Position numbers and translations under genes: made by a program
In this document: piece after piece, positions 8,341-13,281 of the stretch
How the letters are laid out: each line of letters begins with the position of its first letter
Numbering within the stretch: position 1 is the stretch's first letter
Notes under the pieces: model-generated
What the model was told of the DNA's origin: nothing
The model's input: only the letters and a program-made list of their open reading frames with translations
Database searches by the model: none
From: Acidobacteriota bacterium
Lineage (GTDB): Bacteria; Acidobacteriota; Thermoanaerobaculia; Multivoradales; JAGPDF01
Reading direction: 5' to 3'
Assembly (NCBI GenBank): GCA_014584695.1
Contig: JACTMI010000018.1
Coordinates: 1-45,000 of the forward strand
Length of the DNA: 45,000 nt

Positions 8341-8438
8341 GGGGACTCCAATGAGTCTGAAGCCGGGACGGCTCGGGCGTCAAGAGCGGCCGGTCGCGGG
8401 CTGGCGGCGCGCCGCCGGACCTCCGGCCGAGCTTCCGG

Positions 8439-8444
8439 TAATCT
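8439..8444 (+). promoter_or_regulatory. -10-like TAATCT upstream of the AI-2E permease
   Basis: TAATCT lies 29 nt before the ATG at 8474 and leaves room for a leader with the GGGAGAG ribosome site. No confident -35 element was found. Confidence 0.35.
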
Positions 8445-8473
8445 CCCCCTCGCCGAACCCGGGAGAGAGCGAC

Positions 8474-9592
8474 ATGCCGGAATCCCCCCGCTTCGCCGAG
8501 GACCGCTCGCGCTGGATCGTCCTGGTCGCCGCCACGGCGATCGCGGTCTACCTGTGCTGGAAGATGCTCCAGCCCTTCCTCTCCGTCGTGCTCTGGTCGA
8601 GCATGCTGGCGCTGCTCTTCTCGCCGGTGCAGCGGCGGCTGGCGCGCCGGCTGCCCGCGAGCCTGGCGGCGACGCTCACGCTGCTGCTGGTGCTGGCGAC
8701 CGTCATCGTGCCGCTGGGCGCGGTGACCGGCGCGCTGGTCAACGAGATCTCGGAGTTCGTCGGCACCGCCCCGGAGCGGCTCAAGCGGCTGCTCGAGGAT
8801 CCCGCCTACGGCGGCCGGATCCAGCAGGGCCTCGACCTGCTCGACCAGCATTTCGACCTGCGCAAGAACCTGACCCGCGAAGCCCTGCAGGAGCACCTCG
8901 GCGGCGCGGGACAGTCGCTGGTCAAGGGCACCTTCAACGTCCTCGGCGGCGCACTGGGAGCGCTCGTCAACCTGGCCTTCATCCTGTTCGCGCTCTTCTT
9001 CCTGCTGCGCGACGGCGAGCGCTTCCTGGCGGCGGTGCGCGGCTACCTGCCGCTGGCGCCGGCCGAGAGCGACCAGATGTTCGAGCGGACGCGCGAGATC
9101 ATCCAGGCCAGCGTCAACGGCGTGCTGCTGATCGCGGCGCTCCAGGGGCTGATGGGCGGGCTCGCCTTCGCCGTCCTGGGCCTCCCCTCGGCCCTGCTCT
9201 GGGGTGTCGTGATGATGCTGCTGTCGATCCTGCCGATGGTCGGCGCCGGCCTCATCTGGCTGCCGGCGGCGCTGCTGCTGGTGGCGCAGGGGGCCTACGG
9301 CAAGGCGATCGTCCTCGTGCTCTGGGGCGCGCTCGCGATCGGCTCGGTCGACAACTTCCTGCGGCCGCGCCTGGTCGGCCAGCGCGCGCGCATGCACGAG
9401 CTGGTGATCTTCTTCGCCGTGCTCGGCGGGCTCAGGGTCTTCGGCGTGCTCGGGCTCTTCTTCGGGCCGGTCGTGGTGGCGGTCACGACCTCGCTGTTCG
9501 AAGTCTTCCGGCGCGGCGGCGGGAGCGGCCAGCGCCCGGACGCGGCGCCGCAGCCCTCGGTGCCCCCCGCCGCCGATCCGCCGCCGGTTTGA
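8474..9592 (+). CDS. AI-2E family transporter (UPF0118/PerM type)
   Basis: The 372-aa membrane protein has the AI-2E family layout: two N-terminal helices (about residues 15-55), a third near 75-95, an amphipathic soluble stretch, then a C-terminal set of helices including FNVLGGALGALVNLAFILFALFFLLRDG as one hydrophobic span. The conserved RPRLVGQRARMHELVIFFAVLGG region is also clear. Members export autoinducer-2, act as Na+/H+ antiporters or are uncharacterised, so substrate cannot be inferred. A proline-rich tail ends the chain. The ATG at 8474 is chosen for its GGGAGAG site; the frame stays open 41 codons further upstream. The stop codon overlaps the -35 of the candidate thiamine-operon promoter. 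Confidence 0.88.
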   Translation: MPESPRFAEDRSRWIVLVAATAIAVYLCWKMLQPFLSVVLWSSMLALLFSPVQRRLARRLPASLAATLTLLLVLATVIVPLGAVTGALVNEISEFVGTAPERLKRLLEDPAYGGRIQQGLDLLDQHFDLRKNLTREALQEHLGGAGQSLVKGTFNVLGGALGALVNLAFILFALFFLLRDGERFLAAVRGYLPLAPAESDQMFERTREIIQASVNGVLLIAALQGLMGGLAFAVLGLPSALLWGVVMMLLSILPMVGAGLIWLPAALLLVAQGAYGKAIVLVLWGALAIGSVDNFLRPRLVGQRARMHELVIFFAVLGGLRVFGVLGLFFGPVVVAVTTSLFEVFRRGGGSGQRPDAAPQPSVPPAADPPPV

Positions 9593-9617
9593 CTCGCGGC
9601 CCGGCGCGCGTCACACT
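9589..9617 (+). promoter_or_regulatory. Candidate promoter of the TPP-riboswitch operon
   Basis: TTGACT at 9589-9594 and CACACT at 9612-9617 are separated by 17 nt, a good sigma-70-like arrangement. Initiation near 9624 would start the RNA just upstream of the riboswitch P1 stem. The -35 overlaps the stop codon of the preceding gene. Confidence 0.5.
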
Positions 9618-9627
9618 TGGCGCGTCG

Positions 9628-9713
9628 GAGCCTAGGGGTGGCCCTGGAGAGCGGGGCCTGAGATCACACCCTCAAGACCTGATCCGGTTCGTACCGGCGT
9701 AGGGAAGGCCAGC
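9628..9713 (+). ncRNA. TPP riboswitch (THI element)
   Basis: The aptamer core is recognisable by sequence: GGGGTG (9635-9640), the CCTGAGA box (9657-9663), CACCC, then ACCTGATCCGGTTC and TACCGGCGTAGGGAA. The 5' GCCTA and the 3' TAGG-GAAGGC can form P1, and GGGGTG pairs with CACCC. These are the hallmark segments of the thiamine pyrophosphate riboswitch, which lowers expression when TPP is abundant. It sits about 90 nt before a TonB-dependent receptor followed by a PnuC-type permease and a kinase, so the whole operon is probably thiamine-regulated. No poly-U terminator follows, so control of translation is more likely. Confidence 0.93.
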
Positions 9714-9763
9714 GGCGAAGTCGCCCGCCCCGTCTCGATCTCACGTCCCGAAGGGTTCCGCTA

Positions 9764-9796
9764 CCCGCGGCTCCGGACCCGTGCCGGAGCGGGAGG
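9764..9796 (+). promoter_or_regulatory. Possible Shine-Dalgarno-sequestering hairpin (riboswitch expression platform)
   Basis: CTCCGG (9771-9776) pairs with CCGGAG (9784-9789), and across a 3-nt bulge CCCG (9764-9767) pairs with CGGG (9790-9793). The latter is part of the GGGAGG ribosome site of the receptor gene, whose ATG is at 9802. The hairpin could thus hide the ribosome site in the TPP-bound state. The competing anti-sequestering pairing was not worked out. Confidence 0.5.
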
Positions 9797-9801
9797 CGAA
9801 C

Positions 9802-12138
9802 ATGACCCGTCACCGATTCCGATTCCTCGTCGCAACCGCCTGCGCCGCAACCCTGGCCGCGGGCGCCACCCGCGCCGACGCCGCCCGGGTCGAGGGAACC
9901 GTGCGGGCCCTCGGCGGCGGGCCGGTCCCGGCCGCGACGGTCTCGACCTCGACAGGCGTCTCGACCTGGACCGACGCCGAGGGCCGCTTCGAGCTCGACG
10001 CCGAGCCGGGCCGGCTGCGCCTGACGGTGGTCGCGGAGGGCTTCGCCCCGCTCGCCCTGCCCCTCGCGCTCCCCCCCGAGGGGCTGCGCCTCGAGCTCCA
10101 GCTCGAGCCCCCGGCCCGTTTCGTCGAGGAAGTGGTCGTGGCCGCCGTGCGCGTGGCGCAGGATGCCCCGTCGGCGGTTTCGGAGATCGCGGGGCTGGCG
10201 CTCGAGCGGGCCGACTACGGCCAGGAGATGCCCTTCCTGCTCACCGCGACGCCCTCGATCGCGAGCTACTCGGAGACCGGCCTGCAGCAGGGCGGCGGCT
10301 ACTCTTACTTCACCCTGCGCGGCCTGCCGCAGTCGCGCGTCAGCATGACCCTCGACGGCGTGCCGCTCAACGATCCGGAGGAATCGGCGGTCTATTTCGC
10401 CAACTTCGGTGACTTCACGAGCGCGCTCTCGGCGGTGCGGGTCGAGCGCGGCGCCGGCACCGCCGCGCTCGGCTCGGCCGCCTACGGCGGCGCCATCCGC
10501 TTCGAGAGCGTCGCCCTCGGCGAGATCTCCTCCGCCAGCGTCGAGGCCGGCCTGGGCAGCTACGGCACCGGCCGCGCCGCGGCCTCCTGGCAGAGCGGGC
10601 GGCTGGCTTCGGGGCTGGCGCTGTTCGGGCGCGTCTCCTACCAGGAGACCGACGGCTGGCGCGAGCGCTCCGGCGTCACCCAGCGCAGTCTCTTCCTGGG
10701 CGGAGACTACCGGGGTGAGTCGACCTACTACCGCTTCTTCGGCTTCTCCGGCCGCGAGCGGACCCAACTGGCGTTCCTGGCGGTCGAGCCCTGGATCCTC
10801 GAAGTCGACCCGCGCGCCAACCCGATGCAGCCCGAGGAAAAGGACGCCTTCGGCCAGGACCTGTTCTACCTCCAGGTCGCGCGGACGCTGGGCGGCGGCG
10901 CCGAGATCGCCGCCCAGGCCTACTACAGCGGGGCACAAGGATCGCTGCGGCTCTACGATGACCCGGTGACCCGCACTGGGCTCGCGAAGTACGGCATCGA
11001 CGGTCACACGGTCGGCCTGTTGCTGTCGGGCCGGGCGCGCGGCGAGCGCTGGCGGCTCGACGCCGGCCTGCACGGGCTCGACTTCGAGCGCGATCACTTC
11101 GCCTTCGCCGAGAGCGGCGCCCGGCTCTACCGCAACACCGGCGCCAAGCAGGAGCTCTCCGGCTTCGCCAAGCTGGCCTGGGAGGCGACCCCCCGGCTGC
11201 GCCTGTTCGGTGACCTCGAGCTGCGGTGGGCGCAGTTCCGCTATCGCGGCACGGTTGACCTGCCGGCGGTCGACTGGGGCTTCGCCAACCCCCGCGTCGG
11301 TGCCCGCTTCGCCGCCACCGAGCGGCTGGATCTCTGGCTCTCGGTCGGCCGCGCCGGGCGCGAGCCGGCGCGCAACGACCTGCTCGAGGGGCAGGACGAC
11401 CTCGGCGCACCGGTCGATCTCGAGCGGGTTCGCCCCGAGCGGGTGACCGACTACGAAGCCGGGCTCGACTGGCGCTCGCCGCGGGCCACGGTCTCGGCGA
11501 CCCTCTACGCCATGGAGTTCGAGGACGAGATCGCCGCCACCGGCGAGCAATCGGATCTGGGCTACGCCATCCGGCGCAATCTGCCCGAGAGCTCCCGGCG
11601 CGGCCTCGAGCTCGAGGCGAGCTTCCGGCCGAGCGAGCGCTGGCGACTCAGCGCGGTCGCCAACGTCTCGCGCAATCGGGTCGAGGTCTGGAGCCAGGCG
11701 CTCGACGTCTACGACGAGAGTGGCTACGCGGGAACCGCGCTGGTCACCGTGCACGACACGCCGACCGCGCTGTCGCCCGAGACCATCCTCGGCGCCGCCG
11801 CCGACTGGAGAATCGCCCCCGGCCTTGAGCTCGCGCTCTCGGCCCGCTGGGTCGACCGCGCGTTCCTCGACAACCTGGGCGAGGCGAGTCTGGCGACCCC
11901 CTCCTACGGTTGGGCGGACCTCGCGCTGCGGGTCGAGCTCGGACGCTGGATCCGGGCCGGCGCGCCGGCGCTCTCCCTGCGCGTCAACAACCTGCTCGAC
12001 GAGCGGCGAGCCTGGCCATCGGGCTACAGCTACCCCTATCTGGTGCGCGCGGGCGGCAGCGAAGCGCTCCACGGCATTCCTTACTTCTATCCGCTGGCGC
12101 CGCGCCACCTGATCGGCGCGCTGGAGCTGCGCTTCTAG
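9802..12138 (+). CDS. TonB-dependent outer-membrane receptor, probably for thiamine
   Basis: The 778-aa protein has a signal peptide (about 1-27), a carboxypeptidase-regulatory-like beta-sandwich (about 28-90, VEGTVRALGGGPVPAATV), a plug domain (about 110-235, with FTLRGLPQSRVSMTLDGVPL and RVERGAGTAALGSAAYGGAI), and a beta-barrel ending in terminal Phe (GALELRF). SLRVNNLLDERR near the end is the usual TonB-dependent C-terminal block. It would move a ligand across the outer membrane using TonB energy. The ATG at 9802 is preferred for its GGGAGG site; a GTG seven codons upstream is in frame. The TPP riboswitch before it and the PnuT-like permease 10 nt after it argue for thiamine or a derivative as ligand. 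Confidence 0.92.
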   Translation: MTRHRFRFLVATACAATLAAGATRADAARVEGTVRALGGGPVPAATVSTSTGVSTWTDAEGRFELDAEPGRLRLTVVAEGFAPLALPLALPPEGLRLELQLEPPARFVEEVVVAAVRVAQDAPSAVSEIAGLALERADYGQEMPFLLTATPSIASYSETGLQQGGGYSYFTLRGLPQSRVSMTLDGVPLNDPEESAVYFANFGDFTSALSAVRVERGAGTAALGSAAYGGAIRFESVALGEISSASVEAGLGSYGTGRAAASWQSGRLASGLALFGRVSYQETDGWRERSGVTQRSLFLGGDYRGESTYYRFFGFSGRERTQLAFLAVEPWILEVDPRANPMQPEEKDAFGQDLFYLQVARTLGGGAEIAAQAYYSGAQGSLRLYDDPVTRTGLAKYGIDGHTVGLLLSGRARGERWRLDAGLHGLDFERDHFAFAESGARLYRNTGAKQELSGFAKLAWEATPRLRLFGDLELRWAQFRYRGTVDLPAVDWGFANPRVGARFAATERLDLWLSVGRAGREPARNDLLEGQDDLGAPVDLERVRPERVTDYEAGLDWRSPRATVSATLYAMEFEDEIAATGEQSDLGYAIRRNLPESSRRGLELEASFRPSERWRLSAVANVSRNRVEVWSQALDVYDESGYAGTALVTVHDTPTALSPETILGAAADWRIAPGLELALSARWVDRAFLDNLGEASLATPSYGWADLALRVELGRWIRAGAPALSLRVNNLLDERRAWPSGYSYPYLVRAGGSEALHGIPYFYPLAPRHLIGALELRF

Positions 12139-12148
12139 GCGCGCCGCG

Positions 12149-12739
12149 ATGGATCCGCTCGAGCTGGCCGGCGTCGCGACCGGCGTCGTCGCGGTGGCGC
12201 TGACCGTGCGTCAGAACCCGATCTGCTGGCCGATCGGCATGGTCAACGTCGCGCTCTTCGCGGTGGTCTTCGCGCGCGCCCGCCTCTACGCCGACTCGGG
12301 GCTGCAGCTGGTCTACTTCGCGCTCTGCGCTTACGGCTGGTGGCAGTGGCGGCACGGCGGCGCCGGTGGCGGTGCGCTCGAGGTCGGACGGACTCCGCCG
12401 CGCGCCGCGCTGGCGCTGGCCGCCGCCGCCGTCGCTGGCGCGCTCGGGCTGGGCGCGCTGCTGCACCATTCGACCGACGCCTCGTTTCCCTGGCTCGACT
12501 CGGCGCTCGCGGCGGGCAGCCTGGTCGCGCAGTACCTGCAGGCGCGCAAGTGGATCGAGAACTGGCTGCTCTGGATCGCCGTCGATCTCGCCTACGTCGG
12601 CATGTACGTCGCCAAGGCGCTGTTCGCGACCGCGCTCCTCTACCTCGCCTTCACCGCGCTCGCGGTCTCCGGCTGGCTCGCCTGGCGCCGCTCGCTCGCG
12701 GCGCGGCGGCTCGCGGCGGCGGCGCACCCGAACGCATGA
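12149..12739 (+). CDS. pnuT: PnuC-family permease, probable thiamine transporter PnuT
   Basis: The 196-aa membrane protein has about seven predicted helices and the PnuC family signatures QNPICWPIGMVNV, YFALCAYGWWQW and KWIENWLLWIAVDLAYVGMY. PnuC-type permeases are facilitators that work with a cytoplasmic kinase trapping the vitamin by phosphorylation. The subfamily is set by context: a TPP riboswitch controls the operon and the receptor stop lies 10 nt upstream, which points to thiamine (PnuT) rather than nicotinamide riboside (PnuC). The stop overlaps the next start as ATGA, so the kinase is coupled to it. Substrate is inference, though well supported. Confidence 0.85.
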   Translation: MDPLELAGVATGVVAVALTVRQNPICWPIGMVNVALFAVVFARARLYADSGLQLVYFALCAYGWWQWRHGGAGGGALEVGRTPPRAALALAAAAVAGALGLGALLHHSTDASFPWLDSALAAGSLVAQYLQARKWIENWLLWIAVDLAYVGMYVAKALFATALLYLAFTALAVSGWLAWRRSLAARRLAAAAHPNA

Positions 12740-13281
12740 GCCGCTCGGTTCCCCTGCGCGCGGTGCTGACCGGCCCGGAGTCGACCGGCAAGACCTGGCT
12801 CGCCGGCCGGCTCGCCCCCCGCTTCGGCGCTCCGGTCTCGGAGGAGGCGGCGCGACGGGTCGCCGAGGCGCGCGGGGGCGCCCTCGACGCCGCCGACATC
12901 CATGACGTGGCGCGGCTCGAGATCGAGCTCGAGGACCTGGCGGAGGCGAGCGCGCGCGCCCGCGGCGCACCGCTCGTCCTGCACGACACCGACCTGGTCT
13001 CGACGGTGGTCTACGGCCGCCATTACAACGGCAGCTGTCCGCCCTGGATCGAGCGCGCCGCGCGGGCGCGGCGCGCCGATCTGTACCTGCTGCTGCTGCC
13101 CGACGTGCCCTTCACTCCGGAGCCGGGCCTGCGCGGCAACGAGCGGGATCGGGCGGCGCAGCTGCCGCTCTTCCGCGCCGCGCTCGCAGAGCTCGGCATC
13201 CGGCCGGTCGAGATCGGCGGTGGCTGGCAGGAGCGCGAGCTCGCCGCGCTCCAGGTGCTGGCGCGGGCCCTGCGCGCCTGA
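12736..13281 (+). CDS. NadR-like P-loop kinase, candidate thiamine-trapping kinase
   Basis: The 181-aa protein has a Walker A loop TGPESTGKTWLA near residue 10 and resembles the ribosylnicotinamide kinase domain of NadR. Shared features include LHDTDLVSTVVYGRHYNG, the DLYLLLLPDVPF segment, LRGNERDRAAQLPLF and a C-terminal IGGGWQER. It lacks the NadR DNA-binding and adenylyltransferase domains. Its ATG overlaps the permease stop (ATGA). In NAD salvage, PnuC and NadR form such a transport-and-trap pair; here the TPP riboswitch implies that thiamine is phosphorylated instead. The usual thiamine kinases (ThiN, ThiM/ThiK, Tnr3 type) are not in this operon. The specificity is inference, with nicotinamide riboside the main alternative. 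Confidence 0.8.
   Translation: MSRSVPLRAVLTGPESTGKTWLAGRLAPRFGAPVSEEAARRVAEARGGALDAADIHDVARLEIELEDLAEASARARGAPLVLHDTDLVSTVVYGRHYNGSCPPWIERAARARRADLYLLLLPDVPFTPEPGLRGNERDRAAQLPLFRAALAELGIRPVEIGGGWQERELAALQVLARALRA

Follow-up and report, generated by a model that had tools for sequence, protein, structure and literature searches.

A TPP riboswitch in an Acidobacteriota bacterium precedes genes for a TonB-dependent receptor, a PnuC/PnuT permease, and a standalone kinase that matches only the kinase domain of NadR, a family known only for vitamin B3 metabolism. Genome comparisons indicate that this kinase is most likely a thiamine kinase that converts imported thiamine to thiamine monophosphate (TMP), which ThiL, encoded elsewhere in the genome, would then phosphorylate to TPP. 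In the most probable explanation, which we favor with considerable confidence, low TPP leaves the riboswitch open, the receptor takes thiamine through the outer membrane, PnuT lets it diffuse through the inner membrane, and the kinase uses ATP to trap it as TMP, until TPP made by ThiL shuts the riboswitch. The transport of thiamine by the two proteins, the substrate and product of the kinase, and the mode of riboswitch control are inferred from sequence and genome comparisons rather than from enzyme data. A preliminary description of the locus had proposed thiamine import plus trapping by a NadR-fold kinase, and this reading is right in substance.

The riboswitch (RF00059) lies at 9624 to 9722 (+) of the 45-kb stretch of DNA analyzed here (the window) and is complete, matching model positions 1 to 105 of 105 with 63.2 bits against a gathering score of 54.3 (E 3e-10). 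It was the only Rfam match in the window and the only TPP riboswitch found in the 4.35-Mb genome. The range of 9589 to 13281 previously assigned to the operon needs a small correction because its first bases (9589 to 9592) are the end of the upstream AI-2E-family transporter gene (8351 to 9592). No intrinsic terminator was found and the predicted fold was no better than that of shuffled sequences, which leaves translational control as the likelier mode. The receptor gene (9802 to 12138, +) has a likely ATG start at 9802 behind GGGAGG, has a likely ribosome-binding site (GGGAGGCGA, 9791 to 9799, +), and encodes TonB_dep_Rec (PF00593), Plug (PF07715), and N-terminal CarboxypepD_reg (PF13620) domains. 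It is a probable thiamine receptor (OMthi-like), and the same receptor family follows TPP riboswitches in related genomes. The permease gene (12149 to 12739, +) gave a whole-domain match to PF04973 (190 bits, positions 2 to 175 of 175), and the PnuC structure 4qtn is its best solved relative. The product is probably PnuT, but the PnuC equivalog model TIGR01528 also passed its cutoff, and thus sequence alone does not tell thiamine from nicotinamide riboside as the substrate.

The kinase gene (12736 to 13281, +) overlaps the permease stop as ATGA at 12736 to 12739, an arrangement annotated as translational coupling. The 181-residue product contains GPESTGKT (Walker A) and DTD (Walker B) motifs and matches Pfam AAA_28 (PF13521) with 108 bits. 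The NadR model TIGR01526 was matched only in its kinase part (model positions 167 to 324), with 67 bits against a cutoff of 341, and the NMN adenylyltransferase (NMNAT) domain of NadR is missing. There was no match to thiamine pyrophosphokinase (TPK; PF04263) or to ThiK (TIGR02721). The solved relatives of the kinase are NadR proteins. An AlphaFold prediction (pLDDT 94.6) placed the fold with NadR as well: the five best structural matches were all NadR, with Z of 21 to 23, ahead of thymidylate kinases at Z 17 and below.

The genome, which is 97.8% complete, has ThiL over the curated cutoff but no TPK, no ThiC, no ThiE, and no ThiK over cutoff. ThiL phosphorylates TMP. Without ThiE there is no known source of TMP from the two halves of thiamine, and without ThiK or TPK there is no known enzyme for imported thiamine, although ThiD, ThiM, ThiG, YjbQ, and unnamed APH-type kinases were not among the proteins searched. 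The only kinase under TPP control in the genome is the one in this operon. The closest loci are from Acidobacteria MAGs, one titled Thermoanaerobaculia, and the genomes of related loci share the gap. Of 15 genomes with the kinase, including Bacteroidota, Chlorobiota, Verrucomicrobiota, and one Pseudomonas, 14 had ThiL over cutoff, none had TPK, two had ThiC, and two had ThiE over cutoff.

To determine whether this pattern holds more broadly, 396 genomes of the phylum, taken to be Acidobacteriota and each at least 90% complete, were searched with profiles for the kinase, TPK, and ThiE. Kinase and TPK never occurred in the same genome, although the kinase search scored eight candidates per genome and a further kinase could be missed. 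Because NadR itself matches the kinase profile, the 39 genomes with a kinase match were split with an NMNAT profile into 22 with a standalone kinase and 17 with only bifunctional NadR. Of 49 genomes without ThiE over cutoff, 18 had the standalone kinase, 21 had TPK, one had only NadR, and nine had none of these. ThiL was over cutoff in 18 of 18 genomes with the kinase and in 0 of 21 with TPK (Fisher p 1.6e-11). By families, the count was 7 against 7 (one-sided p 2.9e-4). Related genomes are not independent. ThiC was absent from both groups. So where thiamine must be taken up whole, a genome has either TPK alone or the standalone kinase with ThiL, as expected if the kinase makes TMP. MAGs can lack genes by chance, but a perfect partition over 39 ThiE-less genomes argues against this. 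An exception was G019, a genome that lacks ThiE and TPK and keeps ThiL but in which only a NadR-type kinase was found (loci L063, L104, and L105); one of its two TPP riboswitches is at a contig edge. Five of the nine ThiE-less genomes with neither kinase nor TPK have ThiC and probably a ThiE that was missed or not assembled. Genomes G086, G199, G221, and G328, which also lack ThiE, the kinase, and TPK, had no ThiL over cutoff (G328 just below it), which may reflect incomplete assembly or another route to TPP.

The preliminary description placed the kinase where TPK genes are found in related operons, and one possibility is that the kinase is likewise a pyrophosphokinase that turns thiamine into TPP in one step. 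This would explain why the kinase and TPK exclude each other and can hold the same place behind the same receptor. However, a pyrophosphokinase would make ThiL needless, yet ThiL is kept in every ThiE-less genome with the standalone kinase, and NadR kinases transfer one phosphate. We therefore consider this alternative improbable. It is also very unlikely that the operon salvages a part of thiamine (HMP or hydroxyethylthiazole) and that the kinase phosphorylates that part. HMP and thiazole kinases appear to be common in thiamine salvage, but no ThiE was found to join the halves in this genome and 17 others with the kinase, and ThiC is absent too.

A further alternative is that the kinase is a nicotinamide riboside kinase, as in NadR, and the permease a PnuC, so that the operon brings in vitamin B3 and lies behind a TPP riboswitch only by accident. 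The NadR kinase domain is the nearest characterized family, and the permease passes the PnuC cutoff. However, the bifunctional NadR relatives provide an internal control: only 1 of 17 genomes with NadR-type fusions alone was ThiE-less, compared with 18 of 22 genomes with the standalone kinase (p 2e-6). Furthermore, the NMN adenylyltransferase domain that uses the product of nicotinamide riboside phosphorylation is missing. This alternative is thus also unlikely.

The operons are consistent with this conclusion. The preliminary description had held that absence of the kinase from other TPP-regulated pnuT operons would refute its proposal, but the arrangement of TPP riboswitch, receptor, PnuT, and kinase was found in 15 of 22 genomes with the standalone kinase and in none of 17 NadR-type genomes. 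In one genome, G101, the riboswitch scored 54.2, just under 54.3, and in another, G073, the kinase is cut by a contig end. In G063, G219, and G391, pnuT-kinase lies elsewhere, but the TPP riboswitch still precedes the same receptor family. The loci of G064 and of G392, a genome of the same genus, are cut by contig ends; the G392 kinase is identical to that of the record named Acidobacteria ACD1. In four TPK genomes (G265, G026, G226, and G384), TPK follows the TPP-controlled receptor directly, with no PnuT between. Such riboswitch-receptor-TPK operons without PnuT were seen at loci L107, L108, L109, and L110.

Similar salvage systems are known. In Bacteroides, TPP riboswitch genes OMthi, pnuT, and tnr3 form one operon in most gut Bacteroidetes, and deletions showed that receptor and permease matter for thiamine use (PMC5613172). 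There the enzyme is Tnr3, described as thiamine pyrophosphorylase, whereas here it is a NadR-fold kinase that is found only with ThiL. PnuC with NadR shares the permease family, the kinase fold, and trapping by phosphorylation, but the kinase studied here stands alone, under a TPP riboswitch, in genomes whose gap is in thiamine metabolism. E. coli ThiK (YcfN) followed by ThiL carries out the reactions predicted here, but ThiK belongs to another family. TPK also commits imported thiamine to the cofactor but is of another family and, by the ThiL pattern, makes another product, TPP at once. No earlier proposal of a NadR-like thiamine kinase was found, although an earlier mention in older papers on thiamin regulons, the NadR kinase domain, or PnuT transport cannot be excluded. 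Such an enzyme would fill a missing step in many bacteria that cannot make vitamin B1, give the NadR kinase fold a second vitamin as substrate, and show that a transporter and its trapping enzyme can change substrate together. We infer that the change is chemically plausible because both substrates are positively charged rings with a primary alcohol. These genes are now named PnuC and AAA ATPase or NadR-like, so B1 and B3 needs are likely to be mispredicted in microbiome models.

In a tree of kinase domains, the standalone kinases of these operons, the window's among them, formed a clade of 21 (support 100/98) comprising 20 standalone kinases and one fusion. The fused member, from genome G228, is an NMNAT-kinase gene convergent to a TPP-receptor-PnuT operon (locus L115, 755 to 4343) and may be an evolutionary intermediate or a re-fusion. 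G219 and G391 branched with a NadR-type protein outside the clade, with weak support, and the Bacteroidota kinases formed a separate group. Thus, the standalone form may have arisen more than once, and the same function outside the main clade is less sure. The clade has fixed residues that differ from the NadR types (L87, S89, Y93, and P102). Position 93, Tyr in the clade and mostly Trp in the NadR types, separates the groups in this phylum, but H. influenzae NadR has neither in this stretch, and no binding-site claim is made. The permease tree was less resolved, and neither the W..W...N/D motif nor any other alignment column separated TPP-linked from NadR-linked permeases.

Outside the phylum, Bacteroidota, Chlorobiota, and Verrucomicrobiota with PnuC-kinase pairs mostly lack ThiC, ThiE, and TPK but keep ThiL. 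It is possible, and somewhat more likely than not, that standalone NadR-fold kinases paired with PnuC-type permeases in these phyla and in Acidobacteriota are a widespread, unrecognized family of thiamine kinases, unrelated to ThiK and TPK, that arose from the nicotinamide riboside kinase domain of NadR together with its permease. In one Bacteroidota MAG a ThiE-like (TMP-TENI) gene lies directly upstream of the pnuT-kinase pair (locus L023, 4845 to 5477). A conserved ORF of 85 to 96 amino acids directly before pnuT-kinase in Bacteroidota/Chlorobiota (L005, 5099 to 5359; L008, 5069 to 5359; L020, 5050 to 5307; L024, 5038 to 5307; L026, 5075 to 5359) has weak similarity to YkoF/thiamine-binding proteins but stays below cutoffs and is only a hint. 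A Rikenellaceae standalone kinase (locus L012, 4894 to 6537) has no adjoining pnuT and has quinolinate synthase NadA upstream; the substrate may differ there.
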